35,168 nt of DNA from an uncultured Propionibacterium sp. (GCA_937867175.1 CALMKG010000607.1:1-35168); one strand, 5' to 3'. Positions 9,311 through 35,021 are shown, numbered from the stretch's first letter. Translations and numbers: made by a program. Notes: a model not told the origin generated them from the sequence alone.

Positions 9311-9321
9311 CACACGGTGTG
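9311..9321. repeat. Perfect palindrome CACAC-G-GTGTG before the relaxase
   Basis: Five-base arms (9311-9315 and 9317-9321) around a single G, directly after the polypyrimidine tract and 60 bases before the relaxase start. It may be an operator or part of a transfer origin; the function is inferred from position only. Confidence 0.45.
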
Positions 9322-9380
9322 CAGATCGAGGGGGCTGTGGAGAAGGACGCGCACCTGAGCGCTGTGGGACGGAAACGGCC

Positions 9381-13800: not shown

Positions 13801-16800
13801 ATGAAGCCTGATTCCCCCAACTGGATCGTCATGGGTCCGCCCGCGACACCAGCGGAGGAAGCGGCGCTCGACGCGTTCCGTGAGTTACTGCCCGAAGACG
13901 GCATCACGACCGCGTGGGTGAACCTCACCTTCATCGACAACAACGGTCGTTCGGGCGAGATCGACGTCTTGCTGCTCACCCGATCGGGGCTCCACGTTGT
14001 CGAGCTCAAGGGCTGGCACGGACGCATCCACGGGAACACCCAGCGTTGGTTCCACAACATCCGGAACGTCGAGAATCCCTGGCTGACCACGGACCGCAAG
14101 GCCAAGCGCTTGGCGGAGCTTCTCAAAGACGTGGCGCCGAACGAGCAGGCCCGCAAGGTCGTGCCGTTCCTCCAGTCGAAGGTTGTACTGCACGGCCACG
14201 GGAGCGTCGTCGAGCTCGACGAGCGAGCCGCTCTCGGCGTGCTCGCTATGGACAAGTTCGATATCAAGGCGAAGCCTGCGCTCACCAAGGTCAGCGCCTT
14301 CCTGGGCGAACTCCCGAGGAACCCTCATCACGTTGTCGACTACCAGCGCGCAAAGGCGATTCGTGCTCTGTGCGGCAAGGCCGGTTTCAAGGCGACGCCT
14401 AAGACACGGATGGTCGGGGACTACAAAGTCGCGGACTCGACACCGATCGCTGAGGGCCCTGACTGGCAAGACGTACTCGTCGACAATCCTCACATCAGCG
14501 GGGTCAAACTCCGCCTGCGCCTCCGCGACCTGCCGCCGAAGGCATCTGCGGCTGACCGGCAGCGGATCGAGGACCTCGCGCAGCGCGAGTACCAGCTCAC
14601 CTACGGCATCCGCCACGACGGGATCGACGTCCCGACCGAGTTCAAGAAGACCGACGACGGCCCTGCGCTTGTCTTCGAGTACGATGACTCCGAGCAGCCG
14701 CTCGACGCCTTCATCTCATCCCAGCCGGACCTCTCGTTCGATCAGCGGATGGCGATGGTCATGCGCCTGGGCGAGACCATCCGGTTCGCTCATCAGCGGC
14801 ACCTGATTCACCGTGCCCTCGGGCCACAGCGCATCTGGGTCCGGAAGCCCGCTGGCAGGAGCGGCAAGGACGCCAACCCGCGACTGTCGATCCGGGATTG
14901 GTACTCGGGGCAGAAGGATCGCTCGAGTAGTTCCGAGACGCGATGGACCACGATCAGTGCCGGCGTGACCGACATCCTCGGGGTGGCCGCACACGAGGAC
15001 TGGATCTACCTCGCCCCCGAGGCACGCGTCCCATCCGACAATCTGCCCGGGGCTCCACTCGACATCTACGGTTTCGGCGCCGTGGCCCACCTCATCCTGA
15101 CCGGCCGGCCGCCGGCGGAGAGCCTTGCCGAGCTCGACCACAAGCTCACTGAGGAGAAGTCCCTCGATCCTCGCTCCGTCGCCGCCGGCATCCCTGACCC
15201 GATCGCAGATGTCATCGCGCTCATCACCAGTGCCAGCGAGACTGAGCGCCCGGCCACCATGGCCGAGGTCCTCGACTACCTCAACAGCGCATGGGACGAG
15301 GTCCGGCAAGGCGATGACGCCGAGTCGGCACCAACGGAGGTCGAGGATCCGCTCGACGCCCAGAGCGGAGACGCGATCGCCGATCGCTTCCTCGTGCTGG
15401 GGCGCCGCGGCGAAGGCTCGAGCGGAGTCGCGTTCGCGGTCAGCGACATGGATGCCGCCGATCCCGAACGCGAGGTGATCCTCAAGGTCTCCCGGAACCC
15501 GTCGGCAGACAAGCGCCTCAAGGCGGAGGCGGAAGTTCTCCGAGCGCTCGACCACAAGCGCATCGTCCGCGTCCTCGACGGCCCGATGGACGTCAACGAA
15601 CGCCGCGCACTTCTTCTGAGCGATGCCGGCAAGGAGACCTTGGCCGTTCGGCTCGCGAAGGAAGGACGCTCCACCCTCGAGCAGCTGCAGCAGTTCGGCG
15701 GCGACCTCCTCGACGCGATGGCCTATATAGAGACCAAGGGCCTCTTCCATCGCGACATCAAGCCGGCCAACCTCGGCATCATTCCCGACCCGGGGACCCG
15801 CAAGCCCTCCCTCGTCCTCTTCGACTTCTCGCTCTCCGATGAGAGCGTCGACAACACCGCGTCCGGCACGCCCGGCTACCTCGACCCCTACCTCGGCCGC
15901 GGCGCCCGCCGGCGCTACGACCGCGCCGCCGAGTTGTACGCCGTCTCCGCAACCCTCTTCGAGATGGCGACCGGTGGACTGCCTTGGTGGGGCAGCGGCA
16001 GCGGCCAGCCACTGAGTTCGACCGACGCGCCAGTCATCGAGCCGACCGCGTTCGAGCCAGCTGTCGCCGCGCAGTTCACCCAGCTCTTCCGCAAGGCGCT
16101 GCACCCGGATGCCAAGGCCCGATTCAGCAGCGCTCACGAGCTGGCGGTGGCCTGGCACGAGGTCTTCGCAACCCTCGATGCGAGCGATGAGACGGCTGAG
16201 GCCAACGACCAGCTCGCTGAGGCAGCCGAGCTCGACACGCCGCTCGAGAAGTCCGGACTGTCTGCTCGTGCTCGATCGGCGGTCGCCCGCCTCGACGTCA
16301 CCACGGTGGGAGGGCTGCTCGGTGTCCACCCCACGAAGATCAATTCGATCCGGGGCCTGGGGGAGTCTTACCGCAAGGAGATCCAGGCTCGGATCAAGCA
16401 GTGGCGCGCCCGCCTCAGCGTCCCGACGGTCACCGATGACTCCCTCACCGCCAAACGTGGGGTCGAGCGCGTGCTGGCAGGCCTGCTCGAGGTCCTCAAC
16501 GGATCCGACCGGGTGGTCGTCGACACCCTCCTGGGGCTGACGCCAGAAGCCGCGGAGGCACAAGCGACATGGCCTGCTGCCGCTGAGGTCGCCCGGGCGC
16601 TGGGCCAGACCCGCGAGCAGGTGCTCGATGTCCTCGATCGAGCGGTCGGCAAGTGGGCCAAGAAGAAGGAGCTCGACGGCGTTCGTCAGGACGCCGTCAC
16701 GATGCTGGCCAGGCAAGGCCGTGTGACGACCGTTCCGGCCCTGGCGGTGGCGCTGGCCGCGCACCGCGGATCCCTGTTGGACGGTGTCGAGCGCACCCGA

Positions 16801-17973
16801 CAGGCCGCGGCACTCCTTCGCCTCGTCTACGAGCTCGACGCCCGCGAGGTCGAGCCGGCCTTCGACCTGCGCAGAAGCGCCAAGCGCCCGGCGCTCATCG
16901 CCCTCCACGAGAGCGCGGACCCGGACGAGACCGGCCGCGACTACCCGCCCGCCGACGTCCTCATCGACGCAGCCGCCGAGCTCGGCCGGGCCGCCGACCT
17001 CCTCGTCGACGATGACACCGTCGTGCCGTACGCCGTCGCCACCCAGGCTCTGCGGGAGGAGATCGCCGACACCGCAGCGGCCGCGGTGATCATCGATGAC
17101 CGCCGTCTGGTCCGGCTGGCCGCCGAGGCCAGCGAGTCAGCCGAGCTCTCCGGGTTCGACGAGCTCTATCCGGCCACGTTGCCGGCCCAGATCGCCGTCG
17201 ACCTTGCACTGAGCGGCAAGCCCGGGCGCCAGATCTCCGAGGCCGCTGTCCGGAAGTCGGTGACGACCAGGTTCCCCGCCGTCGAGCTGCCCGCCAACAG
17301 CCATGACCTGGACACCCTGGTCGCCGCGGCGCTGCCCGGCATGGTGCGGCGCGACGGGATCTATGAGCCCGCGAGCACCAACCAGACCACCCTGACGGGA
17401 ACGCCAACCGCCTTCGGCACCAGCCTCATGAGCACGCCCGGAGCCGACGTGGTCGTGCGGCTGCGAGACTCCCTCCGCCGCCACAGCGCCCTGACGTTAT
17501 GTGTCCCCCCGAGTCGGTACGTCCGGCAGAGCCACGAGCTCGCCCACGACTTCGACGTCGAGCTCTTGGACGTTTCACACCTGGTCGTCCAGGCGACCAA
17601 AGAGCTGGCCTCGACTCACGGCATCGAGTGGCCCTTCGTCGTCGGCGTCGACGCCAAGGCGCGCGACGGCTCCGATTGGGCCAACCTCACCCGCCTCGTC
17701 CAGGCCGCCGTAGAACCCGCATGGGCCACCGCCATGGAAACCGAACGACCGCTGCTGCTCACCTATGCAGGCCCACTCCAGCGCTACGGCCTCGGCCACC
17801 TCCTCGCAAGCCTGCTCGACGTCGGTACGGAGCGCCCAGCCGCTCGCTGGCTGCTCGTCGCGATGCAGGCAAGTCAGACCGTGCCGATGCTCGACGGCAG
17901 GCCCGTCCCGCTCGGCCCTAGTGGGTGGCTCACGCTGCCCTCCGACCTTCCGAAGGAAACCCCGACCCCGTGA
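13801..17973 (+). CDS. pglW: PglW, NERD-domain serine/threonine kinase of type 2 BREX
   Basis: A protein of 1390 aa. The ATG at 13801 is chosen because the NERD domain starts soon after it and AAGGA precedes it; the open frame upstream lies over the small gene before it. Domains: NERD nuclease-related domain at about 20-130, with acidic/Lys residues E53, D55, E68 and K70 (VVELKGWHG); a first kinase-like domain at about 220-500; a second kinase domain at about 520-780; then a long helical C-terminal half, with a helix-hairpin-like segment near 810-870. The first kinase lacks the catalytic Asp (HRAL at 337-340) and looks like a pseudokinase. The second has K562, HRDIKPAN with D652, and DFS (675-677) in place of DFG. 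PglW is one of the four proteins of the Pgl (phage growth limitation)/type 2 BREX systems. Two TTA leucine codons occur. Its last four bases overlap pglX. Confidence 0.93.
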   Translation: MKPDSPNWIVMGPPATPAEEAALDAFRELLPEDGITTAWVNLTFIDNNGRSGEIDVLLLTRSGLHVVELKGWHGRIHGNTQRWFHNIRNVENPWLTTDRKAKRLAELLKDVAPNEQARKVVPFLQSKVVLHGHGSVVELDERAALGVLAMDKFDIKAKPALTKVSAFLGELPRNPHHVVDYQRAKAIRALCGKAGFKATPKTRMVGDYKVADSTPIAEGPDWQDVLVDNPHISGVKLRLRLRDLPPKASAADRQRIEDLAQREYQLTYGIRHDGIDVPTEFKKTDDGPALVFEYDDSEQPLDAFISSQPDLSFDQRMAMVMRLGETIRFAHQRHLIHRALGPQRIWVRKPAGRSGKDANPRLSIRDWYSGQKDRSSSSETRWTTISAGVTDILGVAAHEDWIYLAPEARVPSDNLPGAPLDIYGFGAVAHLILTGRPPAESLAELDHKLTEEKSLDPRSVAAGIPDPIADVIALITSASETERPATMAEVLDYLNSAWDEVRQGDDAESAPTEVEDPLDAQSGDAIADRFLVLGRRGEGSSGVAFAVSDMDAADPEREVILKVSRNPSADKRLKAEAEVLRALDHKRIVRVLDGPMDVNERRALLLSDAGKETLAVRLAKEGRSTLEQLQQFGGDLLDAMAYIETKGLFHRDIKPANLGIIPDPGTRKPSLVLFDFSLSDESVDNTASGTPGYLDPYLGRGARRRYDRAAELYAVSATLFEMATGGLPWWGSGSGQPLSSTDAPVIEPTAFEPAVAAQFTQLFRKALHPDAKARFSSAHELAVAWHEVFATLDASDETAEANDQLAEAAELDTPLEKSGLSARARSAVARLDVTTVGGLLGVHPTKINSIRGLGESYRKEIQARIKQWRARLSVPTVTDDSLTAKRGVERVLAGLLEVLNGSDRVVVDTLLGLTPEAAEAQATWPAAAEVARALGQTREQVLDVLDRAVGKWAKKKELDGVRQDAVTMLARQGRVTTVPALAVALAAHRGSLLDGVERTRQAAALLRLVYELDAREVEPAFDLRRSAKRPALIALHESADPDETGRDYPPADVLIDAAAELGRAADLLVDDDTVVPYAVATQALREEIADTAAAAVIIDDRRLVRLAAEASESAELSGFDELYPATLPAQIAVDLALSGKPGRQISEAAVRKSVTTRFPAVELPANSHDLDTLVAAALPGMVRRDGIYEPASTNQTTLTGTPTAFGTSLMSTPGADVVVRLRDSLRRHSALTLCVPPSRYVRQSHELAHDFDVELLDVSHLVVQATKELASTHGIEWPFVVGVDAKARDGSDWANLTRLVQAAVEPAWATAMETERPLLLTYAGPLQRYGLGHLLASLLDVGTERPAARWLLVAMQASQTVPMLDGRPVPLGPSGWLTLPSDLPKETPTP

Positions 17974-20900
17974 TCGACTCCGCCGCCCTCCTGAAGGACC
18001 TCAAGGCACAGCTCAAGCTGGTCCAGGCCGACCTTCGTCTCCGCGCCGACGACAAGGCCGACCGCTGGGGCGCCCGCTTGCAGGAGGAGTACGCCGAGGC
18101 CCGCCGCCGCGAGCGCACTGGCCACTCCTGGGTCGTGTGGCGCGACAACGAGGTGGACCAGGCAGCAGTCGCCTGGCTGATCGCGATGACGTTCGTGCGC
18201 TTCTGTGAGGACAACGACCTGCTGGCCGGTGCGCGCCTCGACGGCAACCCGGCACCTGTCGGCTGGATCGCCGGCCCGGGCGACCGCACCGCCCGCGCGG
18301 AGGAGAACCTCACCGCCTACTTCCGGGAACACCCGACTCACAACCGCCGCGACTGGCTCCGCCAGGCCTTCACGGTGCTTGCCGCGCAGCCGGCGGGCAA
18401 GGCCGTCGTCGACACCTCCCACAACCCCGTTTGGGTCGCCGACATCAGCGCCGAGCGCGCGACAGCGTTGATCGACTTCTGGCGCACCACCGACGCCGAC
18501 GGCAACCTCGTCCACGACTTCACCGACGACGCCCTCGACACTCGATTCCTTGGCGACCTCTACCAGGACCTCTCCGACCACGCGCGCAAGACCTACGCCC
18601 TGCTGCAGACCCCTGTCTTCGTCGAGGAGTTCATCCTCGACCAGACGCTGACTCCTGCACTCGCTGAGTTCGGCCTTGAGGGCATCAAGCTCATCGACCC
18701 CACCTGCGGATCGGGCCACTTCCTGCTCGGCGCGTTCCAGCGCCTCGTCGACCAGTGGCAGGCGGAGGCGCCCGCCCTCGACCCGAAGGAGCGCGTACGC
18801 CGCGCCATGGACTCCATCCACGGCGTCGACCTCAACCCCTTCGCCGTCGCGATCGCGCGCTTCCGCCTCACCGTCGCCGGTCTGCTCGCAATGGGCGAAC
18901 GATCCCTCGTCGGTGTGCCCAACCTCGGCTTCCACCTCGCCATCGGCGACTCCCTCCTCGGCGAGCTCGGCGGCGCGCCCGAAGGATTCCAGTTCGAAGA
19001 CGAGGAATCAGAGACCTACCTCTACGACACCGAGGACCTCAAGGAGTACGCCGGCATCCTCAAGCCTGGCCAGTACCACGTGGTCGTCGGTAACCCTCCC
19101 TACATCACGGTCAAGGACCCCGCGCTAAACGCCCTCTATCGAAGCATCTACAGAACGGCTTTTAAGGAGTACCAACTCACCGCGCCGTTTATGGAACTTC
19201 TCTTCCGGCTTGCCGTCCGAGGGGAGCCGGGTAAGCCCGCTGGCTTCGTCGGGCAGATCACCGGCAACGGTTTCATGAAACAGGACTTCGGCAAGAAGGT
19301 AATCGAAGACCTTTTCGGCGGTTTTCACGAAGGCAACCCGGTAGACCTTGCGCTCGTGGTAAATACCGAGGGCGCGCACATCCCTGGACACGGCACGCCC
19401 ACCGTAATTATTGTCGGTCGCCGACGTCGGCCATTCGGTGACTCTGTGCGCGCGGTGCTGCACCTTCGTGGCGAACCTAAGGAGCCGGATGACCCCGCGC
19501 GAGGAAAGGTGTGGACAGAGATCGTCGATCACTACGCCACGCCCGGATTTGTAGGAAACTACATCGCCGTTGCTGACGTCGCCCGCGGAATCCTCTCGAC
19601 TTATCCATGGCATCTGTCCGATGACACACGTGCGGCTGTTATGGAGCAGATGATTTCAGCCAGCTCCCGAAAGCTCTCGAATGCGGTCGACGTCTTTGGG
19701 TACACCGGGCAGACCAATGCCGACGGGGCCTTCCTGGCGCCTGCTAGCGCGCTCGCTCGCAGGAATGTGGAACCGGACTTGTGCCGCTACTTCCTTACTG
19801 GCGAGGATGTTCGCGACTATGTTGCGCGACCCGGCAAGGCTTCGCTTTTCCCATATCGCGGGGCAAAGCTTGTTGACATTGCGTCCGCGCCTGGACTGTT
19901 GAGATGGCTGTGGCCCGTACGCACCATTACGTGGGCGCGAGCGACCTTCTCGAAGAGGACATACAAACAGGAAGGGCGAACCTGGTGGGAGTGGCACCAG
20001 GTGTCCCCGGACCGAATGGGGACGTGGGCAATTACCTATCCCCGAGTTGCAACCGTTCAACATTTCGCCTTTGTTCAATTCGATCCGGCCTTCAACCGAG
20101 AAGCATCCTTCTTGCAGCTGCCGCCGGGATCCGGCGAGGGCGAACATCATGAGCTGTTGGGCTTGCTGAATAGCTCCCTGTCCACGTTCTGGCTGAAGCA
20201 GGTTTGCCACAATAAGGGCAATGGGGGCATCGGGGGCGGAATCGGCGACGAAGACTGGGAGCCTCGATACGAGTTCACCGGAACTAAGCTCGAACAGTTC
20301 CCCCTGCCAGCGGCCCTGCCGCATGAGCGGGGACGGGCGCTCGACGCCTACGCTCACGCACTGGAGGCCGCAAGGCCTCGCGAGGTAGTCGACAACTGGG
20401 TCAGTCGTGGATCAGGTGACCTGCGGACGGCTTTGATGGTCGGCGAGACAGCGTTCCGCCAGGCGCGGAAGGCGATGATTTTCGAACAGGAGGAGCTGGA
20501 CTGGGAGACGTACCAGCTCTACGGGCTCGTCGACGAGAATCTGACGTACACCAGTGGTGAAATGAACGAACTTGCGCTCGGCGAGCGCGCGTTCGAAGTG
20601 GCGCTCGCCCGTCGAGTGGAGGCAGGCGAGGAAGAGACCGCGTGGTTTGCCCGGCACAGATCAACGCCGATCACGGAAGTTCCAACCCAGTGGCCGCCGA
20701 GCTACCGAGCCGTGGTGGAGCGCCGTCTCGACTTGATCGACTCGGATCCGACCATCCGACTCTTGGAAAGGCCCGAGTTCAAGCGTCGCTGGCTAGTCAC
20801 GCCTTGGGACGCGCAGCTCAAGGAGGCGCTCGAGACTGCAATCCTCGATCGTCTCGACGCACCGGAGCTATGGCGCGACGGGCAGGGTCCGGTCACCCGG

Positions 20901-21578
20901 TCCGCGGCGGAGATCGCTGATCTGCTGCGCGGGGACGCGGTGCTTCGCGAGCTGGTCGAGGTCCTGACCGGTGACGCTGAGCCGGACCTCGCCAAGGTGC
21001 TGGGCTCGCTGGTGGCCGGCGAGGCGGTGCCATACCTCGCCGCTCACCGCTACAAGCCGTCTGGACTGGAGAAGTTCCGCGCCTGGCAACAGGTGTGGGA
21101 CCTGCAGCGGCGGGAGGACGCGGGGGAGAAGGTCGACATCCCGGTGCCCCCGAAGTACGCCACGGCCGACTTCAAGAAGGTCGAGTACTGGAAGGCCCGC
21201 GGCAAGCTCGACGTACCGAAGGAGCGGTTCGTCCTGTATCCGGACCTGCGCCGCGAGGGGGACAACACCGTCGTGCTCGGCTGGGCGGGCTGGGACCACA
21301 AGGACCAGGCGTTGGCGTTGGCGCGTGAGTTCCCGACCCAGGAGGCGCTCGGCGCCAGCGACGATCTGCTGACCCAGATGGTCGCCGGGCTGGTCGAGCT
21401 CGAGCCATGGGTGCACCAGTGGCACTCCGAGATGGATGCCTCGTTCGGTGTCAGTCCGGCCGATGCCATCACCGGCGTCATCGACCAGCAGCTCGGCCGC
21501 CTCGAGACGACCCGTGATGCGGTCACCGCTTGGACGCCGCCAGCGGCCGTCCGCGGCCGGCGTCCCAAGAACGCGTAG
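17970..21578 (+). CDS. pglX: PglX, adenine-specific DNA methyltransferase of type 2 BREX
   Basis: A protein of 1202 aa from a GTG at 17970, overlapping the pglW stop (GTGA) with GAAGGAAA upstream. The N-terminal helical region is followed by the SAM-binding motif LIDPTCGSGHFLLGAF (D243) and the amino-methyltransferase catalytic motif NPPY (375-378). The variable target-recognition and C-terminal regions follow. PglX methylates adenine in a non-palindromic site to mark self DNA, and it is needed for BREX defence. The segment from about 19110 to 20700 has lower GC and more A/T-ending codons than the rest (see separate entry), which suggests an exchanged specificity domain. The frame is unbroken through it, so the gene appears functional. 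It ends 15 bases before pglY. Confidence 0.95.
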   Translation: MIDSAALLKDLKAQLKLVQADLRLRADDKADRWGARLQEEYAEARRRERTGHSWVVWRDNEVDQAAVAWLIAMTFVRFCEDNDLLAGARLDGNPAPVGWIAGPGDRTARAEENLTAYFREHPTHNRRDWLRQAFTVLAAQPAGKAVVDTSHNPVWVADISAERATALIDFWRTTDADGNLVHDFTDDALDTRFLGDLYQDLSDHARKTYALLQTPVFVEEFILDQTLTPALAEFGLEGIKLIDPTCGSGHFLLGAFQRLVDQWQAEAPALDPKERVRRAMDSIHGVDLNPFAVAIARFRLTVAGLLAMGERSLVGVPNLGFHLAIGDSLLGELGGAPEGFQFEDEESETYLYDTEDLKEYAGILKPGQYHVVVGNPPYITVKDPALNALYRSIYRTAFKEYQLTAPFMELLFRLAVRGEPGKPAGFVGQITGNGFMKQDFGKKVIEDLFGGFHEGNPVDLALVVNTEGAHIPGHGTPTVIIVGRRRRPFGDSVRAVLHLRGEPKEPDDPARGKVWTEIVDHYATPGFVGNYIAVADVARGILSTYPWHLSDDTRAAVMEQMISASSRKLSNAVDVFGYTGQTNADGAFLAPASALARRNVEPDLCRYFLTGEDVRDYVARPGKASLFPYRGAKLVDIASAPGLLRWLWPVRTITWARATFSKRTYKQEGRTWWEWHQVSPDRMGTWAITYPRVATVQHFAFVQFDPAFNREASFLQLPPGSGEGEHHELLGLLNSSLSTFWLKQVCHNKGNGGIGGGIGDEDWEPRYEFTGTKLEQFPLPAALPHERGRALDAYAHALEAARPREVVDNWVSRGSGDLRTALMVGETAFRQARKAMIFEQEELDWETYQLYGLVDENLTYTSGEMNELALGERAFEVALARRVEAGEEETAWFARHRSTPITEVPTQWPPSYRAVVERRLDLIDSDPTIRLLERPEFKRRWLVTPWDAQLKEALETAILDRLDAPELWRDGQGPVTRSAAEIADLLRGDAVLRELVEVLTGDAEPDLAKVLGSLVAGEAVPYLAAHRYKPSGLEKFRAWQQVWDLQRREDAGEKVDIPVPPKYATADFKKVEYWKARGKLDVPKERFVLYPDLRREGDNTVVLGWAGWDHKDQALALAREFPTQEALGASDDLLTQMVAGLVELEPWVHQWHSEMDASFGVSPADAITGVIDQQLGRLETTRDAVTAWTPPAAVRGRRPKNA
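19110..20700 (+). other. Compositionally atypical central segment of pglX (likely specificity region)
   Basis: Hand counts of single 60-base lines give about 48% GC at 19141, 58% at 19321 and 52% at 20041, against about 68% at 18901. Codons such as TTT, ATT, AAT and ACT, almost absent elsewhere, are frequent. The change begins right after the NPPY motif and covers the region expected to contact the target sequence. Boundaries are approximate. Confidence 0.6.
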
Positions 21579-21593
21579 GGAAGGATCGGAACC

Positions 21594-24500
21594 GTGTCCG
21601 ACACTGTGATCAACCAGGGACTCTCGCTGCCGCTCCGTGATGCCATCAGCATCCCGGAGGAGGTCCACGACGCCGACTTTGTCCTGCAGATCGACAAGGC
21701 ACAGGACCAGCCGACCCAGACGCTCAACGACTACGTCGTCACACCTGGTATTGCCGAGGCGTTCCGCCAGGCGCTCGCCCTCGTTCAGGCTGCCTTCGAC
21801 ACCACCAGCGCACGCGGCACCTTCGTGCACGGCTCCTTCGGAGCAGGTAAGTCCCACTTCATGGCGGTGCTGCACCTGCTCCTCACCGGCAACTCCCACG
21901 CCCGGGCCTTGCCTGGCCTCCAGGACGAGATCGCGCGGTACTCCGGCGTGCTGGACCGCAATCTGCTGGCCGTCGACTACCACTTCGTCGGCGCGCAGAG
22001 CGTCGAGTCCGCTCTCTTCGGCGGCTACCTGCGCACGGTGAAGGCCAAGCACCCAGACCAGCCTGCGCCCGTCCTGCACCGTTCCGACGCGCTCTGGGCC
22101 GACGGCGACCGGCTGCGCGCCACGATGGGGGACGACGTCTTCTTCGCTCCATTCAAGGACAGTTCCGGTGGCGGCTGGGGTTCCTTCGGATCGGCAGTGA
22201 CCGCAGAGACCTACGATGCCGCGCGGCACGCCGCACCGACCGATCCTGACCGGCTGCGGATCACCGCCGAGCTGGTCAAGCACTACTTCCAGTCCTCGGA
22301 GGTCACCGGCACCTGGCTCGACATGTCCACCGGCCTGCACGCGATGACCCAGCACGCCAAGAGCCTCGGCTACGACGGTGTCGTGCTCTTCCTCGACGAA
22401 CTGGTGCTGTGGCTGTCGGGGCACCTCGCCGACAGCACCTTCATCTCCACTGAGACCGAGAAGGTCGCCAAGCTGGTCGAGACTGGTGGCGGCACTCTGC
22501 CCGTCCCGTTGATCTCCTTCGTCGCCCGGCAGCGCAACCTCAAGGACTTCCTCGGCGGCGGAACTGGGGGCGCCGAACGAGTCGCCCTCGACGACGCGTT
22601 CCAGTGGTGGGAAGGACGCTTCGAGCGCATCACCCTCCCCGCGGCCGACCTCCCGGAGATCGTCCAACGACGTCTGCTGACGCCCTCGAGCGAGGAGGGC
22701 AAGTCGGCGATTGGCGCGGCGATCGCCAAGGTGAAGGCCAACCCGGCGGCGTACCGCCACCTCCTCACCGACGAGGCCGGCTCGAGCGGAGTCGACTTCG
22801 AGAAGGTGTATCCCTTCTCGCCGGCGCTCGTCGACGCGATGATCGCGCTGTCGGCGATCATGCAGCGCGAGCGCACCGCGCTCAAGATCATGAGCGAGCT
22901 GCTCGCGCACGGTCGTGACGAGCTCACCGTCGGTGACGTCATCGGCGTCGGCGACCTCTTCGACGAGGTGGTGCTCGGCAACTCCGAGCCCCTCACCGAC
23001 GACATGAGGGCCGTCTTCAAGGCAGCACGCACCTTCTATCAGCTGAAGATGCGGCCCTACCTGCTCAACAAGCACAGCCTCACCGAGACCACGGCCACCG
23101 GTCTTCCACGGGACCACGCCTTCCGACGCGACGACCGGATCGCCAAGACGCTCCTGATCGCGGCCATCGCGCCCGGCGCGGCCTCGCTGAAGGACCTCAC
23201 GGCGTCCCGGATCGCCGCCCTGAACTTCGGCTCCGTGAAGTCGATGATCCCCGGCCAGGAGGCCACCCAGCTGACCACGCAGGTCAAGCAGTGGGCCAGT
23301 GAGTTCGGCGAGATCAATGTCGGGCAGGGCGTCGACCCGATCGTCACGCTCACCCTGACCGGCATCGACTTTGACTCGATCCTCGTCCACGTCGACACCG
23401 AGGACACCTCCGCTAACCGGCGTCGGCTCATCCGTGACCTGCTCGTCGCTGAGGTAGGTGCCCGTCCTACTGGCGCCATTGGCAGTGACTACGCCCTGAC
23501 GCATGTCTGGCGCGGCCAGAAGCGTGACGTTGACGTCATCTTCGGCAACGTGCGCGATCGCCAACTGGTGCCTGACTCCCTGCTCCAGGCCGAAGGTGGG
23601 CGATGGAAGCTTGTCATCGACTACCCGTTCGACGACGACGCCGAGCACGGGCCTTCCGATGATCTCGTGCGCTTGCAGGACCTCAAGCACGAAAAGTTCG
23701 TGTCGGACACGGTGGTGTGGGTGCCGAACTTCCTCACCAGCGCCCGCATGGACGATGTTGGCAAGCTCGTGAAGCTCGACTATCTGCTGACAGGGAGCCG
23801 GTTCGACCAGTACTCCACGTCGCTTCCGGTCGCCGACCGTGAACCTGCACGCAGCCAGCTCCAGAACCAACGTGACTCGTTGCGCGAGCAGGTGATCGGC
23901 GCGCTCCGTCAGGCCTACGGCATCGACGCCGTCCGCGATGACCAGATCGGCGCGCGAGTCCCCGATGGGCGCAACTTCGAGACCTTAGCCGTCGGATACG
24001 AGCCGCTGAAGGTGTCCGCCTCCACGTTCGCCGCCGCCGCAGAGGCCGCGCTCGGAGGCGGTCTCGACGCGCGCTACCCGAACCACCCGACCGTGGACCG
24101 CGGCACCGACGAGGTGAAGAGAGGGGACCTCGTCGCCGTACTGGAGCTGGCCCGCAAGGCCATGGCAGCAGGCGGACGCATCGAAGCGGTCGATCGGCCG
24201 ACCGCGACCAAGGTGCGTCGCGTCGTCGACGGCTACGGCGTGGGTCGACTGGCCGAGGTGACCTACGTGCTCTCCGCGCCGTACTTCCGCTGGAACGACG
24301 ACTTCACCAAGGCCGCCGCCGGGGGCGACGTCACGGTCGCCGAGTTGCACGCTGCGCTGGCCGACTTCGGAATGACCAGGGACGCCGAGGACCTCCTCAT
24401 CCTGGCGTGGGCAGCGATGACCGACCGCGTGTTCAAGCGCCTGGGGAGTCTCGTGCCGAACCCGTCGATCGGGTCACTGGTCCCCGAGATGGTGCTCCAC

Positions 24501-25391
24501 GAGCCGGTGCTGCCGACACAGGACGAGTGGGAGACCGCACTCGCCCGCGCCAAGGCTCTCTTCGGGGTCGGCAGCAACGAGTACCACCTCTCCAGCGCGG
24601 CTGTGGAGCGCCTGAGCGAGCTCGGAGGCAAAGTCAAGGAGCTAGGCCCTGGCGTCGCGCGCCTTGTCGCCGCGCTGACCGATCACGCCGCGACTTTCGG
24701 ATTGGACGAAACCAGCCCTCGGCTGGCAACGGCCAAGCGTGCCCAGGACCTCTTCGCCGCCCTCGATCGGGCAGGAACGGCGATGGAGCGGATCCAGGTG
24801 CTCGCAGAGTTCGACCTCCCCGCCGAGCTCCCCGCGTTGGGGAACTCCATCGCGTCCGCATCGGCCGTCGCCGCGGCGATCGAGGGCGCCCAGTGGACCC
24901 TCATCGACCAACTGCCCACGTTGGGAGGAGACGCCGCAGACGAGGCGCTTGCCAGGCTACGCGTGGTCGCGGCCCACGAGGAGATGCATGACAGCCTGAG
25001 GCCTGCGCTGCTCGCGGCGTCGGATGCCGTCACGTCGATCCTCGTCGCGCGGAAGCCTCAGGGCAGCAAGGATGACGAGGAACGGCGCAAGGCCGAGGAG
25101 GCCGTGGCCGCGGCCAAGCGCCGCGCTGAGGAACAGGCCCGCCTGGTCGCCGAGCAGGAGCGACAGATCGCTGAGCAGCAGGCTGCGCTCGCCGCGCAGC
25201 AGGCTCGGTTGGAACAGGAGCAGGCCGAGCTGGCGCGCCGGAAGGCTGAGGCACAGCGACGGGCGGAGGAGACCCACACCCTGGAGCTCAAGCTGGCTGC
25301 GCAGATCGATGAGCTCGCCCAGAAGCTGGCCCACGAGCTCCAGGCCCCCGTTGAGGGCAAGAGCCTCCGGGTTGACTGGAGATGGGAGTGA
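21594..25391 (+). CDS. pglY: PglY (BrxC-like) P-loop ATPase of type 2 BREX
   Basis: A protein of 1265 aa from a GTG at 21594 with GGGAAGGATCGG just upstream. The N-terminal AAA-like domain has Walker [12 protein letters not shown] (K86) and Walker [13 protein letters not shown] (D268-E269). A long middle region of several hundred residues carries no motif I recognise, as in the BrxC/PglY family. The C-terminus (about 1155-1245) is a charged coiled coil rich in Ala, Glu, Gln and Arg, with repeats such as [18 protein letters not shown]. PglY is the large ATPase shared in type by all BREX systems and is thought to form a DNA-associated complex with PglZ and PglX. The gene overlaps pglZ by ten bases. 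One TTA codon lies at 23985. Confidence 0.94.
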
Positions 25392-28057
25392 GCCAGCTCG
25401 TCGACCAGGCCGCGACACGCGCCGTGGTGGTCTCCGCAGCCATGCTGCAGCAGAAGGCCGCGGACCTCGTGGCGTCCACCAGACCGGAACGTGCGCTGAT
25501 CCTCCGGGCGCGCCCCGAGTGGGCGGGGGCAGACCTCACGATCGGTGACCACCTGGTCCGCGTGGTGCCTGGTGTCTCCCAGCTCGCGATCCTCGAGGTC
25601 CTGACGGCGATGGGGGCCGACGACTACGTCATCATCCTCACCGACCGACCGCGCTCGGACCTTGGCGACGCCGTGCTGGCAAGGGCCTACAAGAACGACA
25701 TCCAGATGCCCGACGAGTGGCGTGCCGTTCCCCGCCTCTTCGGTGCACGCGAGGTCAGCCGAGAACTGCGCCGCCTGGATTGGGCAGCGACGGCTCTGCT
25801 TGACCACCAGCCGGTCGGGGGCTGGCCGAAGTCGGCCGACATAGCCGTGACCGACACGTTCGCGATCCAATCCCTTCTCAACGCCGTCCTCGGCATCGAT
25901 GTCACGACCGAGCTGGACGCAGCGGTCCTCATGTCAGCTCTGGGCCGCGGCCAGGTCCGCAACCGGTGGGCGGCTGTAGATGCGGGCCTGCGCCGGCATC
26001 TGATCGAGTGGGTGGAGACGGCGATCGGCCCATCGGGGGCGTTTGCGTTGAAGGTTGCTCAGCGGACCGAGCACGTCACCCCGCTCGCTGTGTCCCTCGC
26101 CCTTGACGTCCTCTGGCCCGATGACGGCGTGGTAGCCGACGAGGACCAGGTGGCAGCCCGGGTGCGCATCGAGCGCTTCATCGACGGCACGACCGTTCCG
26201 GTCGAGGCCGCCAAGGCGGCGGCTCGCATCGCGAAGGCGATCGTCCTCCGCGCCGACGGTGAGTCCGGGGGCGAGATCACCGTTGCCCTCAAGCAGGCCG
26301 AGGCGCTGCTCAGCGATATCGGCTGGACTGCGGGCGCCGAGCGGTCCTCGGTGCTGCGACCCGGATATCAGGCCAGGGTGCGGGCCTTGGCTGCCGCGCT
26401 CCAGGACGGCGGTGACGTCGAGGCAGCCCTGGTCGATGTCCACCGGCACCGGGATCGTGCAGACTCTGCCGCGCCGGACATGGCGGTGCGTCTCCACCGT
26501 TGGCTCGCCAACCCAGAGGCGCAGGCCACGGACCTAGCAGGCGACCTGGACCTTCAGATGCGGGATGGCGCCTGGGTCGATGCCGCTATCGGCGTCCTCT
26601 GGAGCGCATCGGACGACCCCGCGGTCTCAGCAGCCTATGCGGCGCTCGCGACCCAAGCACGAGCGCGCCGGACCACGCGCGACGCGGCGGCCGCCCATCG
26701 ACTGGCGCAGGCGGTCACCAACGGTCCAGCGGCCGTCCTCGGCCGCTCACCCATCGGTGTCGAGCGGATTCTCGGTGATGTCGTTGCGCCTTGGCGCAAC
26801 GAGGGCGTCCTCCTCGTTGTGTTAGATGGCCTGAGCTCAGCCATCGCGGTCTCACTCGCGGCAGAGGTATCCCGTCTCGGGCTCATCGAATTCGTCCCCG
26901 CGACAACGAAGCGGCGGATCGGCGCAGTGGCTGCCCTGCCCTCTCTCACCAACATCTCCCGTACGTCTCTGTTCTGCGGCCGGATCGCCAGCGGCACCGG
27001 CGAGGATGAGCGCAAGGGCCTGGCCGAGGCGTTTCCCGGCTCACGCACCTTCCACAAGGACGGGCTTCGAGCACCGAGTGGCGCAGCTCTGCCCCCGGAC
27101 GTCTTAGCCGCGATCGCGTCTACTCCGACCGAGGTTCCGGTCGTCGGCGTCGTCATCAACGCCATTGACGACGCCATGCACAAGAATGACGTGTCGGGAT
27201 GGAGCTGGGAGCTGGCCCAACTCGCACCCCTGCGCGCTCTCCTCGAGGCGGCGCTCAACGCACGCCGCACCGTCGTGATCACCTCTGACCACGGTCACGT
27301 CGTCGAGCGGTCGAGCGAAACGCTCGCTGCCCCCGGTGCTGACGCCCGGTGGCGACCCGTCCAGGCTGCGGCCGGCGAAGGCGAGGTCACTGTCTCAGGG
27401 CCGCGTGTGGTCACGCCTGACCACTCTGCTGTCCTGCTCTGGCGCGAGGACGCGCGCTTCGGGCCCAGGCGGGCCGGCTATCACGGCGGCGCCAGCCTTG
27501 CGGAGATCACCGTTCCCGTACTCGTCTTCCACCCAGCGACGGCGCTCTCCAGCACGGCTGATGGCTGGGTCCAGGCGCCCCCGCAGGCTCCGGATTGGTG
27601 GAACGACCCGGTCCAAACCGCACCGGACATCCCTGCTCGCCCCTCCAAGACGAGGAAGAAGGCGGCTACCGCCCCGCCAGCCGATGACGAAGGACTCTTC
27701 AGCGTCGAGGTCGCGAGCCAAGCGGCCACCCCCGCGCACTCGAACGACATCGTCGGGGCATTGATCAGCAGCCCGGCGTACGCCAGCCAACGCGCGATGG
27801 CGGGCCGGCGCGCTCTCTCCGACGGCCGGGTCGAGACATTCGTGCGAGCGCTGGCGGAGCGCGGTTTCCGCGCTCATCGCGACACGGTGGCTGCAGCACT
27901 TGGGGTTCCTTCCACCGACGTCGGGCAGATTCTGGCCGCGGTCAAACGCCTGCTCAACGTCGACGGGTACGACGTTCTCTCGCTCGACAGCGATGGCGTC
28001 ACCTACAAGATCGATGAGCAGCTTCTCCGCGACCAGTTCGGTCTCGGAGGGCGATGA
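25382..28057 (+). CDS. pglZ: PglZ, alkaline-phosphatase-superfamily protein of type 2 BREX
   Basis: A protein of 891 aa. The ATG at 25382 lies within the end of pglY and is preceded by TGACTGGAG. The PglZ domain is in the middle: [10 protein letters not shown] (D482, the nucleophile-region metal ligand) followed by [16 protein letters not shown] and, near residue 636, TSDHGHVVE with its metal-binding Asp and His residues. The N-terminal 400 residues are helical. The C-terminal 130 residues include a basic linker and a winged-helix-like part ([19 protein letters not shown]). PglZ is the marker gene of every BREX type. It has two TTA codons (26822 and 27104), one directly before the catalytic Asp codon. 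Its stop overlaps the brxD start by ATGA. Confidence 0.95.
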
Positions 28058-29376
28058 GCATGGCCGAGGTGGACATCAGCCCGCGGCGCCGACGCGACAT
28101 CATCGACGCGCTTCGGCGCGGCACCGTCCCCCAGCAGGGACTTGACGTGCTCGCTGTGGGCCTATCGCGGTTCGAGCACGCCATCGACGGCGAGCTCGCG
28201 GCGGTCCGAGACGGCGGAGCCGGCTTCAAAGCCGTGCGTGGCGAGTACGGCTCCGGCAAGACTTTCTTTGCGCGCTGGCTCACTGAAAGGGCCAAGAAGT
28301 CGAACTTCGCCACCGCAGAGATCCAAATCAGCGAGACCGAGACCCCGCTGCACAAGCTCGAGACGGTTTACCGCCGTGTCGTCGAGAACCTCGCCACGCC
28401 AACGACCACCTCGGGAGCGATCCGAGACGTGGTCGACGGGTGGTTCTACTTCCTCGACCAAGACGCAGGCGACGCAGGAGGGCCGGGTTCCCTCGAGCTG
28501 CTCGACAGGCGGCTGGCCGCGGTCTCCCGTGAGGCGCCGGCGTTCGCCGCGGTCCTCCGCTCCTATCGCCTAGCGCAACAGGCGGGCGATGCTCCCCAAG
28601 CTGAGGGCCTGCTTGCCTGGCTCGGCGGTCAACCGCACGTATCTGCATCGGTGAAGCGCGCCGCTGGCGTCCGAGGCGACCTCGACCACTTCGGCGCGCT
28701 CGGGTTCTTGCAGGGCCTCCTCACGGTCCTTCGCGACTCCGACTACTCCGGCCTGGTCCTGGTGCTTGATGAGGTCGAGACACTCCAACGGATGCGATCC
28801 GACGTACGGGAGAAGTCCCTCAACGCTCTGCGGCAGCTGCTCGACGAGATCGACGGCGGCCGTTTCCCTGGCCTCTATCTGGTGATGACCGGGACGCCGG
28901 CGTTCTTCGATGGCCAGCAGGGCGTGCAGCGACTGCCTCCGTTGGCTCAGCGGCTCCAGACCGACTTCCAGACCGACGCACGCTTCGACAACCCCCGTGC
29001 CGTGCAGATCCGACTGCCCGGGTTCAGCGCTGACTCACTCGTCGAGCTCGGTGCTCGAGTCCGTGACATCTTCGCGGCCGGCGCCGGGGACCCCGAACGA
29101 GTACGACGCGTGGTCGACGACGCCTACGTCGCGACGCTCGCCAAGGCCGTCGGCGGCGAGCTTGGAGGACGCACAGGCGTCGCACCCCGACTTTTCCTCA
29201 AGAAGCTGATCGCCGACGTTCTCGACCGCGTGGACCTCTTCGATGACTTCGACCCCCGGCGCGATTACCGGCTGACTGTCGACCCGAACGAGCTCACCGA
29301 GGTGGAGCTTGCTGCTCGAGTACGTGGCGCCGGTGGAGCGGTCGAATCGGTTGACGACATCGACCTGGAGCTCTGA
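28054..29376 (+). CDS. brxD: BrxD, ATP-binding protein of type 2 BREX
   Basis: A protein of 440 aa whose ATG overlaps the pglZ stop by four bases. A P-loop lies at GEYGSGKTFFARWL (K69) and Walker B at LVLVLDEVETL (D239-E240), followed by a sensor-like stretch GLYLVMTGTPAFFD. These are the signatures of the BREX system ATP-binding protein family (DUF2791) in the AAA+ class. The C-terminal third is likely helical with a small winged-helix end. BrxD is particular to type 2 and closely related BREX loci and lies, as here, between pglZ and the helicase gene, with which it probably acts. The gap to brxHI is four bases. Confidence 0.93.
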   Translation: MSMAEVDISPRRRRDIIDALRRGTVPQQGLDVLAVGLSRFEHAIDGELAAVRDGGAGFKAVRGEYGSGKTFFARWLTERAKKSNFATAEIQISETETPLHKLETVYRRVVENLATPTTTSGAIRDVVDGWFYFLDQDAGDAGGPGSLELLDRRLAAVSREAPAFAAVLRSYRLAQQAGDAPQAEGLLAWLGGQPHVSASVKRAAGVRGDLDHFGALGFLQGLLTVLRDSDYSGLVLVLDEVETLQRMRSDVREKSLNALRQLLDEIDGGRFPGLYLVMTGTPAFFDGQQGVQRLPPLAQRLQTDFQTDARFDNPRAVQIRLPGFSADSLVELGARVRDIFAAGAGDPERVRRVVDDAYVATLAKAVGGELGGRTGVAPRLFLKKLIADVLDRVDLFDDFDPRRDYRLTVDPNELTEVELAARVRGAGGAVESVDDIDLEL

Positions 29377-29380
29377 GCGA

Positions 29381-31447
29381 GTGTCGGGCGCGACCGGCCT
29401 CGACCCTGCCGTCGAGTATCACATCGTCAACTCGCTGGGCTGGCCCGGTCTACGCCCCTTGCAGGCTGCTGCCGTCGCCCCCGTTCGGGCAGGTGATGAC
29501 TGCGTCCTGCTCGCCCCGACTGCGGGCGGCAAGACGGAGGCGGCAGCGTTTCCGCTGCTGTCGCAGATGGCCGCCGACGGCTGGAGCGGCACGTCCGTCC
29601 TCTACGTCACGCCTTTGCGAGCGCTGCTCAACAACCTCCTGCCTCGACTGCAGGGCTATACCTCCTGGCTCGGGCGGACAACCGCGCTGTGGCACGGCGA
29701 CGTCGGCCCCGCCGAGCGTCGCCGGATCCTTGCGGAGCGGCCCGATGTACTCCTGACGACGCCCGAGTCGATCGAGGCCATGCTGGTCTCACGCGGCGTC
29801 GATCACAGGCGTTTCTTCGCGGGACTTCGGGCCGTGGTCATCGACGAGCTGCACGCCTTCGCCGGAGCCGACCGGGGGTGGCACCTGCTTGCCGTCCTGG
29901 AGAGGGTCGAGCGGATCATCGGTCGCAGGCTGCAGCGCATCGGCCTCTCGGCGACGATCGGCAATCCGCAGGCCGTGGGGGAGTGGATGCAGGGGTCCAC
30001 CGGTGGACGCCGCCATTTGCGCGTCGTCGAGGGCGCCGGAGTCTCGGCCGGGCCGGATCCTGAGGTGACGCTCGACTATGTGGGCAGCATGGAGAACGTG
30101 GCCACCGTCATCTCGCGCATGCACCGCGGCGAGAAGCGCCTGGTCTTCCTCGAGTCGCGACGGCGCGCAGAGGAACTTGCCTTCCTCCTGCGCGAGCGCG
30201 ACGTGCAGACCTATGTCTCCCACTCGTCTCTCTCCGTCGACGAGCGCCGGCGCTCGGAACAGGCGTTTGCGGAGGCCCAAGACACGGTCATCGTGGCCAC
30301 GTCCACCCTCGAGCTGGGCATCGACATCGGCGACCTCGATCGGATGATTCAGATTGACGCTCCCCGAACAGTTTCGTCGTTCCTGCAGCGCCTCGGGCGG
30401 ACGGGACGACGCGTAGGTGGCCGGCGCAATGCCTTGTTCCTGGCGACGACCCTCGATGGTCTCTTGGATGCGTCAGCCCTGTTGCTGCTCTGGCGGCGCG
30501 GCTTCGTCGAGGACGTCGTGGCGCCACCTCATCCTCGCCATCTCGCCTCGCAGCAGTTGCTGGCGCTCGCCCTTCAAGAGGGGAGGTTCGGCCCGTCGGC
30601 TATCTCGGACTGGTGGGGCGATCTGGCACTGATGACCGACGGACCGCAGGTGCTCGACTACCTGCGATCGGCGAACTTCCTGGTTGAAGACTCCGGCCTC
30701 TTCTCGATCGGCCCCCGCGCTGAGGAGGAGCTCGGAAAGCGGAACTTCATCGAGCTCCTTTCCTCGTTCGTCGCAGCCCCTGAGCTGCGCGTGGTCGCGG
30801 GCACCAAGGAGATCGGCTTCGTCTCACCGCTGTCGCTTCCCGCGCCGACCGATCGTGAGGTGAAGCCGCTGGTCCTCGCTGGCCGCGGCTGGCACATCCG
30901 CGACGTGGACTGGGACCGGTTCACCGTCTGGGTCGAGGAGGTGTCGGCGAAGGGCGACGTGAAGTGGCCTTCCGACGCGATCGCGCTGTCATATGAGATG
31001 ACCCAGGCGCGCCGCGAGGTCCTGCTCGGAGCGACTCCAGGTGTCGAGCTCTCGAAGCGAGTGCCGCAGGCGCTCGGCCGCCTGCGCGGGGATCACTCCA
31101 ATGAGGTGAGTCCCCGCGGACTCGTGGTCTGGCGTGGTGCCGAGAGCCAGAGGATCTGGACCTGGGCCGGGCTCAAGGCCAATGCCACCCTCCTAGCCGG
31201 ACTTGGACAGAGGGCCAAGGGCGTGGAGAACGACTTCGTCGATCTTCCACTCGACCTTGACCTCCGTGACAGCGACAGTACGGCGGTCCCCGACCCCGGA
31301 CCGGAGGCTATGGCCGGCCTGAAGTTCGCGGTTGCACTGCCGCCAGAACTGGCCGCAAGGACTCTCGGCGAGCGCTTGGCCGACCAGACGGGTGCGTTAG
31401 AGAGTCTCGATCGTCAGCTCATCCACAATGTCTGTTCAGGTCGTTGA
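29381..31447 (+). CDS. brxHI: BrxHI, Lhr-like superfamily 2 helicase of type 2 BREX
   Basis: A protein of 688 aa from a GTG at 29381, with GGAG ten bases before it; the open frame to 29309 lies over brxD and is ignored. Helicase motifs run in order: Q-like region LRPLQAAAV, motif I APTAGGKTEAA (K51), motif Ib LLTTPESIEA, motif II DELH (155-158), motif III LSATIG, motif V TSTLELGIDIGDLD and motif VI QRLGRTGRR. This is the Lhr-type DEAD/DEAH arrangement. The C-terminal 300 residues lack the large Lhr extension but have their own accessory domain. brxHI is the last gene of the BREX operon; it ends 18 bases before the convergent DUF262 gene. One TTA codon lies at 31397. Confidence 0.94.
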   Translation: MSGATGLDPAVEYHIVNSLGWPGLRPLQAAAVAPVRAGDDCVLLAPTAGGKTEAAAFPLLSQMAADGWSGTSVLYVTPLRALLNNLLPRLQGYTSWLGRTTALWHGDVGPAERRRILAERPDVLLTTPESIEAMLVSRGVDHRRFFAGLRAVVIDELHAFAGADRGWHLLAVLERVERIIGRRLQRIGLSATIGNPQAVGEWMQGSTGGRRHLRVVEGAGVSAGPDPEVTLDYVGSMENVATVISRMHRGEKRLVFLESRRRAEELAFLLRERDVQTYVSHSSLSVDERRRSEQAFAEAQDTVIVATSTLELGIDIGDLDRMIQIDAPRTVSSFLQRLGRTGRRVGGRRNALFLATTLDGLLDASALLLLWRRGFVEDVVAPPHPRHLASQQLLALALQEGRFGPSAISDWWGDLALMTDGPQVLDYLRSANFLVEDSGLFSIGPRAEEELGKRNFIELLSSFVAAPELRVVAGTKEIGFVSPLSLPAPTDREVKPLVLAGRGWHIRDVDWDRFTVWVEEVSAKGDVKWPSDAIALSYEMTQARREVLLGATPGVELSKRVPQALGRLRGDHSNEVSPRGLVVWRGAESQRIWTWAGLKANATLLAGLGQRAKGVENDFVDLPLDLDLRDSDSTAVPDPGPEAMAGLKFAVALPPELAARTLGERLADQTGALESLDRQLIHNVCSGR

Positions 31448-31465: not shown

Positions 31466-32524
31466 TCATGACGCCCCCAGATACTTGTCGAGGAAGCGCT
31501 CAAGCACGCCAAGCCTGAAGGTGAGCGCGTAGCCGTCGTTGGGCGTCTGGGCCAAGCCGTCGAACTCGATGTAGTCCTTCAGCTCAGGCGGCAGGGCCTC
31601 CTCGTGCTCAAAGCGGTCCAGAGACCGCGCCTCGTTGAAGGCGACGAAGGCGGTGCGGGATGGCATCGTCTCGGACGCGCGGTGGCGCTTTGCGAAGGAC
31701 AGGAAGTAGACCGAGATCATCCCGACGTTGGCTAGCAACCTGTCGCCATCCTCAAACGCTGGAACCATGGCGTCGAGGACCGCTGTCACGGTGTCACTGA
31801 GCTGAGCCACGTGCGCCTCGTTAGCCGAGTGGGCATCCCAAAACTCGTCGAGTTGGCGCTTCTTCACGTCCGACGGCCCGCCGTGGTCGGACCAGAGCAG
31901 AAACTTCAGGGCAAGGTCGTAATGCCGATAGCGAGTGTTGTCGAAGGGCAGCTTCTTGACGAAGAATGGGTGGTCCACGAGGCCCCGGACAACTGGGCGC
32001 AGCGCACCGCCGCGACCGTTCCGCTTCTCCGCGGCATTGAGGGGCACTGCTTCGTTGAGGCGGCTAAACATTTCCTCGATCATCTCGACGTCATCCGTAC
32101 GGATGACGCACACGTCGAGGTTCATCGAGGTCAGAAAGGCGGCCAAGAGGTCGTCGGATCTCTCAAGCTCGCTGAAGGTTTTGCCAGCTGCTGTGGTGGA
32201 GCCATCGTCAAAGAGCACAAAATCGTCGGCCAACGCAAAATCTCCGTCCAGGTAGCCCCAGATGGCTTCGAGACGCTGCCTGCCGTCGATCAGCGAGTAT
32301 CGAATGCGTCGGCCGTCGACGACAAGTGGGGTCGAGTGCTCGTGGAGATAGATCTTCGGGATGTCGAAGCCGTTAAGAAGGCTGTCGAGCAGCAGCCGCT
32401 TCTTGTCGACCGACCAGACCGCGCCCTGGCGCTGGTAGGGCGGATCCAACTGGATCTGGGCCCGCATGCGGTTTAGATAGGCGACGTTGCTGTTCCGCAT
32501 CGCCGAGAGGGTGAACGAACTCAT
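31466..32524 (-). CDS. DUF262-domain protein (GmrS-like N-terminal fold)
   Basis: A protein of 352 aa, ATG at 32524 overlapping the upstream stop by four bases. DUF262 (ParB/sulfiredoxin-like fold) hallmarks are at the N-terminus: PPYQRQGAVW (28-37), LIDGRQRLEAIW (78-89, the DGQQR-type nucleotide-handling box) and, later, SRLNEAVPLNAAEKRN. DUF262 is the N-terminal half of GmrSD-type modification-dependent enzymes. The HNH nuclease domain (DUF1524) usually fused after it is not visible here, so this is a stand-alone version whose C-terminal half (about 200-352) is helical and of unknown role. Pairing with an FRG gene and position next to BREX suggest a defence function (inference). Base composition is slightly less GC-rich than the BREX genes. 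Confidence 0.85.
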   Translation of the reverse strand: MSSFTLSAMRNSNVAYLNRMRAQIQLDPPYQRQGAVWSVDKKRLLLDSLLNGFDIPKIYLHEHSTPLVVDGRRIRYSLIDGRQRLEAIWGYLDGDFALADDFVLFDDGSTTAAGKTFSELERSDDLLAAFLTSMNLDVCVIRTDDVEMIEEMFSRLNEAVPLNAAEKRNGRGGALRPVVRGLVDHPFFVKKLPFDNTRYRHYDLALKFLLWSDHGGPSDVKKRQLDEFWDAHSANEAHVAQLSDTVTAVLDAMVPAFEDGDRLLANVGMISVYFLSFAKRHRASETMPSRTAFVAFNEARSLDRFEHEEALPPELKDYIEFDGLAQTPNDGYALTFRLGVLERFLDKYLGAS

Positions 32525-34663: not shown

Positions 34664-34893
34664 GCCGACCCCGACGAGGTGATGCCGAACGCGGCCAAGA
34701 ACAGCCGCCGGGGGATGAGCACGCGCCGGCCCAGTCGGATCGCCGGGATGGTGCCGTCCTCGATGGCGTGGTCAACCGTCCGGGCGTCGACCGTCAGGAG
34801 CGCGGCCACCTCGGCCCGGTTCAGGACCTCGCGGTCGGTCGTTCGTGCTTCCGCCCAGGTCGTGATCGGGGCGGCGATCGTGTGGTTGCTCAT
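34660..34893 (-). CDS. xis: Excisionase-like small HTH protein
   Basis: A protein of 77 aa if read from the ATG at 34893. The frame is open further upstream, with an ATG at 35001 as another candidate, but the conserved part needs only the short form. A MerR/excisionase-type helix-turn-helix covers about 22-70: VLNRAEVAALLTVDARTVD, then IPAIRLGRRVLIPRR, the recognition-wing pattern typical of Xis/HTH_17 proteins. Such proteins bend DNA at the attachment site and favour excision. It is coupled by ATGA to the integrase. The palindrome at 34894-34906 directly abuts this start and would cover its ribosome site, suggesting control of this gene. Confidence 0.85.
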   Translation of the reverse strand: MSNHTIAAPITTWAEARTTDREVLNRAEVAALLTVDARTVDHAIEDGTIPAIRLGRRVLIPRRLFLAAFGITSSGSA

Positions 34894-34999: not shown

Positions 35000-35021
35000 A
35001 TAGTCGCATCGATAGTCGCAT
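35000..35021 (+). repeat. Tandem 10-bp direct repeat ATAGTCGCAT
   Basis: Two exact copies at 35000-35009 and 35012-35021 with a 12-bp period, close to the second palindrome and just before the HAD gene. They could be arm-type integrase or excisionase sites, or lie in the HAD gene promoter. Short spaced repeats of this kind are common at phage and ICE attachment ends. Confidence 0.5.

Follow-up and report, generated by a model that had tools for sequence, protein, structure and literature searches.

Does the type 2 bacteriophage exclusion (BREX) operon found in an uncultured Propionibacterium sp. belong to the gene set of its chromosome, or is it the cargo of an element that moves between cells? 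The operon lies in a stretch of 35,168 nucleotides (GCA_937867175.1 CALMKG010000607.1:1-35168; hereafter the window), which is the entire contig C607 of a 4.3-Mb, 607-contig assembly with an estimated contamination of 7.8%. The locus very probably belongs to an integrative and conjugative element (ICE) of a family combining a MobF relaxase with Tad and type IV secretion system (T4SS) genes, inserted by a tyrosine integrase in the 5' part of a HAD gene that follows metH, and carrying a complete type 2 BREX together with an FRG/DUF262 pair in the slot between relaxase and integrase. The gene content, ends, insertion site, synteny and slot variation can be read from the nucleotide sequence itself; excision and conjugal transfer of the element are presumed.

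The sequence-only reading had proposed six intact plus-strand genes in the order pglW, pglX, pglY, pglZ, brxD and brxHI, and this is borne out by open reading frames (ORFs) without internal stops at 13801-31447 and by near full-length PADLOC profile matches. Searching each protein against profiles, as that reading had suggested, returned type 2 BREX matches for all six in PADLOC, covering positions 3-1393 of 1403 in PglW, 2-1187 of 1189 in PglX, 5-1227 of 1240 in PglY/BrxC, 7-908 of 910 in PglZ, 3-439 of 440 in BrxD and 5-692 of 698 in BrxHI. These matches are far beyond chance, with E-values from 7.6e-194 down to 0. In NCBIfam, the scores exceeded the cut-offs for PglW (1135.6 bits vs. 990), BREX-2 PglX (1478.6 vs. 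400), BREX-2 PglZ (708.6 vs. 200) and BrxD (626.7 vs. 350), whereas PglY, full-length in PADLOC, reached 877 bits against a cut-off of 1700 with the BREX-2 PglY model (E 2.8e-263), and no NCBIfam BREX model matched BrxHI. The catalytic motifs are also intact: the NERD GEID..ELK and the kinase HRDIKPAN in PglW (with DFS replacing DFG), DPTCGSG and NPPY in PglX, P-loops in PglY and BrxD, SDHGH in PglZ, and DELH in BrxHI. Since the starts are taken as ATG 13801 for pglW (likely), GTG 17970 for pglX, giving a GTGA overlap with pglW (most likely), and GTG 29381 rather than 29309 for brxHI (most likely), the genes overlap or lie at most 15 bp apart, as had been claimed. The locus therefore holds the pglX, pglY/brxC and pglZ core along with pglW, brxD and brxHI, in the compact operon order of type 2 BREX, and this order is identical in the genomes G356, G178, G242 and G005.

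The ends of the element indicate how the operon is placed in the chromosome. As predicted, a relaxase and a tyrosine integrase flank BREX, both confirmed by Pfam (Table 1). A 21-bp attachment (att) core, TTGTGGGACATGGACGGCACG, has just two occurrences in the genome even when 2 mismatches are tolerated: one (attR) lies in the window's HAD gene, the other (attL) at positions 35-55 of another contig, C223. On C223, the core lies after the GYDPED-stop C-terminus of a gene which, from its sequence, we take to be metH. A comparison with relatives lacking the insertion, also suggested beforehand, revealed that in G051 and G012 the same metH end is directly followed by the HAD gene, uninterrupted. Given the att core pair, along with the uninterrupted metH-HAD arrangement in relatives, the simplest reading is that a single insertion in the 5' part of the HAD gene has one junction on C223 and the other in the window. 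Immediately within each end is a 22-bp tandem repeat, ATAGTCGCATCGATAGTCGCAT, which offers candidate arm sites for the integrase or Xis. A tRNA gene was rejected as the integration site, as the window contains no tRNA. Moreover, C223 encodes an IS256-type transposase, a single-stranded DNA-binding protein (SSB), a TraG/VirD4 coupling protein and an ArdC-like protein, so that the integrase, the direct-repeat att sites at a defined chromosomal site and the relaxase of the window are complemented by a coupling protein on C223. The transposase, of the IS256/Mutator type, adjoins attL (L091, 573-1820 of C223), where the sister element of Nocardioides guangzhouensis (G415) has its integrase. The close relatives of the relaxase on actinobacterial plasmids might suggest a free conjugative plasmid instead of an integrated element; this is highly improbable, as the contig enters the HAD gene after an att core that also occurs on the metH-side contig, and its ends do not overlap, by which a circular plasmid is rejected.

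The ICE extends past the left end of the window onto other contigs, and its sister elements in Nocardioides allow the remainder to be traced. The 12.4-kb Tad and relaxase backbone shares 89.7-90.8% DNA identity with N. aequoreus (L119) and 83-87% with N. guangzhouensis (L120/G415), and the homology to both stops inside the 3' end of the relaxase gene at ~12610. Beyond this point, the N. aequoreus element continues with DrmA- and MzaA-like genes, that of N. guangzhouensis with DruE1 (2012 bits). The same slot holds HmaABC or Hma genes (C303, C553) or Gabija (C334) in distant relatives within the window's own genome, and a type III restriction-modification system (G006), IIG fragments with HEC-05 (G010), a cytosine methylase (G034) or, in Mumia quercus (L176), a BREX-3-like set in further relatives. 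Hence, as far as these comparisons reach, the slot is swappable, and different defence systems appear to travel on near-identical backbones. Among the 57 relaxase loci with good flanks, in each of which only the single largest 3' ORF was scored, about 18 gave a PADLOC match at E<=1e-20 (a lower estimate from a family tally, its exact number uncertain and with no matched control interval); the families were IetS (5), HamB (2), LmuB (2), PDC-S06 (2) and others found singly. Other members of the element family carry non-defence cargo, so defence genes are not the only occupants of the slot. Further contigs with Tad/relaxase elements occur in the window's genome (C553, C304, C303, C334, C457 and C505), some with Hma or Gabija; they may include contaminating strains, and their coexistence in one cell is uncertain.

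These comparisons also bear on whether BREX could be a core-genome locus near which an unrelated relaxase and integrase happen to lie. We found no point in support of this, and consider it barely credible: BrxD at E<=1e-60 is present in merely 23 of 391 genomes of the order, metH and HAD are adjacent in relatives, and the same backbone bears other cargo. A core genome conserved at the BREX site, which the sequence-only reading had named as the finding that would speak against it, was thus not observed. Its proposal that BREX is cargo of a transferable element stands as regards cargo status, given the att ends, the uninterrupted metH-HAD pair and the different cargo on the same backbone; transfer itself is what we infer.

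In N. guangzhouensis, a single contig (G415:C84) presents the order cargo, small protein, relaxase, Tad cluster, T4SS-like genes, coupling protein, SSB, Xis-like protein and integrase; one side of it corresponds to the window and the other to C223, with no overlap between the two. Backbone synteny with the window is seen in both G415 and G416, and the synteny with the Nocardioides elements supports the pairing of C223 with the window, as well as the assignment of the Tad genes and the relaxase to the element. C223 and N. guangzhouensis encode coupling proteins with 92% identity (other copies in the genome of C223 reach at most 72%), and the relaxases of the window and N. guangzhouensis are 85-88% identical. 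That the Tad locus is conserved core adjoining the insertion was rejected, as the closest Tad copies travel with the relaxase. Relative to G415:C84, most of the gap between C223 and the window is covered by C376 at 89-92% DNA identity; C376 is a candidate middle contig, with which the element would measure ~80 kb. It carries syntenic T4SS-like genes (the TrbL/VirB6 match in the sister element is weak), and past these a catabolic-looking block (L266/L269, 17000-33000 of C376) with aldehyde dehydrogenases, an aminotransferase and a transporter.

Several points weigh against an intact, mobile ICE. The element is spread across several contigs of the 607-contig assembly, with its estimated contamination of 7.8%, the join of C223 to the window is deduced, and C376 is a candidate; no convincing match to the VirB4-like PF12846 was found in this genome (one was subthreshold), with one more on another contig of G415; and no conspecific genome with an empty site was seen. 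The IS256-type transposase at the left end and an integrase at the opposite end to that of N. guangzhouensis mean that the element could be rearranged or immobile. Hence, it could be a decayed former ICE that no longer excises or transfers, with BREX in effect a fixed chromosomal locus, for which the transposase beside attL, the position of the integrase, which differs from that in sister elements, and the lack of a clear VirB4 would speak. We consider this unlikely, though deserving some weight, since intact copies remain of the integrase, Xis, relaxase, coupling protein and the two att cores, and the candidate middle contig retains T4SS-like genes. An ICE carrying BREX as cargo remains our preferred explanation.

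Table 1. Features of the window, with coordinates counted from its first nucleotide.
Feature	Position	Strand	Basis and remarks
LysM-domain protein, backbone	2..1297	-	Pfam LysM; synteny; C-terminal part of larger gene cut by contig end; 92% to N. guangzhouensis element
Tad/Flp-like pilus genes (TadE/G-like and small pilin-like ORF)	1294..2708	-	Pfam Tad, TadE; kept beside relaxase in sister elements
TadB/TadC-like genes (T2SSF)	2740..4493	-	Pfam T2SSF on ORF 2740-4056; ORF 3636-4493 83% to sister; exact frames approximate
TadA-like secretion ATPase	4490..6253	-	Pfam T2SSE; 94% to N. aequoreus, 82% to N. guangzhouensis
SAF-domain protein and two secreted-type backbone proteins	6726..9087	-	Domain search; synteny
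MobF (TrwC) relaxase-helicase	9150..12905	+	Pfam TrwC E=4.4e-90; NCBIfam MobF 239.7 bits vs. cut-off 100
Small backbone protein, 119 amino acids	13008..13367	+	24 tblastn matches; conserved 3' of relaxase, at near or far edge of cargo slot in relatives
Small conserved protein, 105 amino acids	13371..13688	+	Family bordering methyltransferase-type defence modules
pglW	13801..17973	+	NERD nuclease-like and Ser/Thr kinase; PADLOC PDLC02512 E=0; NF033442 over cut-off
pglX	17970..21578	+	BREX-2 adenine-specific DNA methyltransferase; PDLC02529 E=0; NF033451 over cut-off
pglY	21594..25391	+	BrxC-like ATPase; PDLC02488 E=0; NF047891 E=2.8e-263, under cut-off
pglZ	25382..28057	+	PDLC02565 E=6.7e-219; NF033446 over cut-off
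brxD	28054..29376	+	AAA+ ATPase; PDLC02494 E=7.6e-194; NF033438 over cut-off
brxHI	29381..31447	+	DELH helicase; PDLC02503 E=1.3e-265; Pfam DEAD and Helicase_C
DUF262 (GmrSD_N) protein, second defence-like cargo	31466..32524	-	Pfam GmrSD_N E=4.7e-14; PADLOC NsnA and PD-T4-2_A matches
FRG-domain protein	32521..33270	-	Pfam FRG; PADLOC PDC-S15 E=4e-48; ATGA overlap with DUF262 gene
Tyrosine integrase of element	33347..34663	-	Pfam Phage_integrase E=3.3e-22
Excisionase-like HTH_17 protein	34660..34893	-	Pfam HTH_17 on enclosing ORF; overlaps integrase gene
22-bp tandem terminal repeat ATAGTCGCATCGATAGTCGCAT	35000..35021	.	Also C223:174-195
attR, 21-bp core TTGTGGGACATGGACGGCACG	35114..35134	.	Sole other genome copy C223:35-55 (attL)
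Chromosomal flank, HAD-hydrolase gene continuing past element end	35135..35168	+	WDMDGTLVDTEPYW at contig right end

Besides BREX, the FRG and DUF262 genes next to the integrase probably form a second defence pair. The closest BREX relative is found in G356, a genome of the same order and another family (PglW 84%, PglX 66%, PglY 81%, PglZ 72%, BrxD 88% and BrxHI 78% identity), in which homologues of both small genes lie upstream of BREX and an integrase ~13 kb downstream. The DNA alignment with G356 has a gap in pglX at ~19.3-21.1 kb, which would fit divergence of the target-recognition part. A relaxase lies within ~18 kb of BREX in G039 (two copies) and G191. A degraded second BREX-2 remnant, consisting of brxD and brxHI fragments, was observed in the window's genome on a 6.1-kb contig (L090, 4800-5700 of C560).

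The 105-amino-acid protein encoded upstream of pglW matched nothing in Pfam or PADLOC. Its homologues accompany BREX-2 in G356, BREX-3-like genes in Mumia, a BREX-3 with PglXI, a BrxHI/HII-type helicase, PglZ and BrxA in G028, and they also occur on Arthrobacter-group plasmids. In each of the seven plasmid regions that we read, the gene lies near a methyltransferase and/or AAA/helicase module (in H53 and H55 the AAA-type cluster alone is visible in the stretch shown, the methyltransferases being deduced from the sister cluster in H51). Family members share an N-terminus containing LF and a REEDTWID-type (REEDTWIDKL-type) motif at the C-terminus, and the small, uncertain AlphaFold2 model comprises three helices and a C-terminal helix (mean pLDDT 72.7). 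A phage or viral-contig origin was rejected, as the family has no relatives in the phage and viral-contig collections. We suggest that the protein may be a regulator or accessory factor. With a confidence just short of even, we propose that a Tad/MobF ICE family of Propionibacteriales and relatives swaps whole large defence systems in a slot beside the relaxase on a near-constant backbone and that, in addition, methyltransferase-type defence on conjugative elements has the 105-amino-acid protein as a partner or regulator.

In the phage growth limitation (Pgl) system, PglX is toxic without PglZ, resistance requires the PglW kinase and the PglY ATPase, and PglW is proposed to relay the infection signal (PMC4365076); BrxD may load or activate BrxHI (PMC12839542). 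By homology, the BREX of the window would most likely shield the host from phage, and with it the element, in the manner of Streptomyces Pgl: infection would be sensed by PglW and signalled through phosphorylation, PglX would act as an adenine methyltransferase restrained by PglZ, and PglY, BrxD and BrxHI would provide ATP-driven DNA handling. Phage resistance conferred by this operon is presumed on the same analogy.

Type 2 BREX is known from 1309 taxa (PMC12839542), and Pgl has been known since 2007 to lie on a ~30-kb genomic island that is absent from S. lividans (PMC1934918). Streptomyces coelicolor shares pglWXYZ with the window, to which the type 2 definition adds brxD and brxHI (PMC4365076; PMC12839542), but its pglWX and pglYZ form two loci on the island (PMC1934918), whereas in the window all six genes form a single contiguous operon within a probable T4SS-type ICE. 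BREX-2 is also present on Rhodococcus opacus pLP414 and a plasmid of Streptomyces sp. NBC_01334 (BrxD 61-64% identical to that of the window); these carriers are large linear plasmids, unlike the integrase-bearing element with a defined att site described here. Actinobacterial TrwC ICEs (PMC3218068) and Propionibacterium freudenreichii clusters (PMC5644110) have in common with it a TrwC/TraI relaxase, a TraG-type coupling protein, SSB and a tyrosine integrase, but the subfamily of the window differs from those TrwC ICEs in its Tad/Flp-like cluster beside the relaxase and its defence cargo slot, and the papers searched gave us no description of this and none of Tad-bearing actinobacterial ICEs. 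The two Nocardioides elements share the 12.4-kb backbone, with the onward gene order also matching in G415, and differ in carrying DISARM/Mza-like and Druantia genes in place of BREX; the integrase of G415 is different (27%) and located at the other end. Hence, BREX-2 on islands and plasmids and actinobacterial TrwC ICEs were already known, and what our analysis adds is the comparison of slots across elements, together with the small gene.

Plasmids (3.4%) and prophages (2.0%) were the sole mobile carriers considered in a survey of defence systems in actinobacteria, which left ICEs uncounted (PMC10482375). A defined BREX-2 ICE, along with sisters whose backbones are about 83-91% identical and which have Druantia or DISARM/Mza-like genes in the same place, offers a concrete and testable exchange route, and such elements show one way in which large defence systems spread between actinobacteria. 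Methyltransferase-based defence that arrives by conjugation could have a new control factor in the flanking gene for the 105-amino-acid protein.

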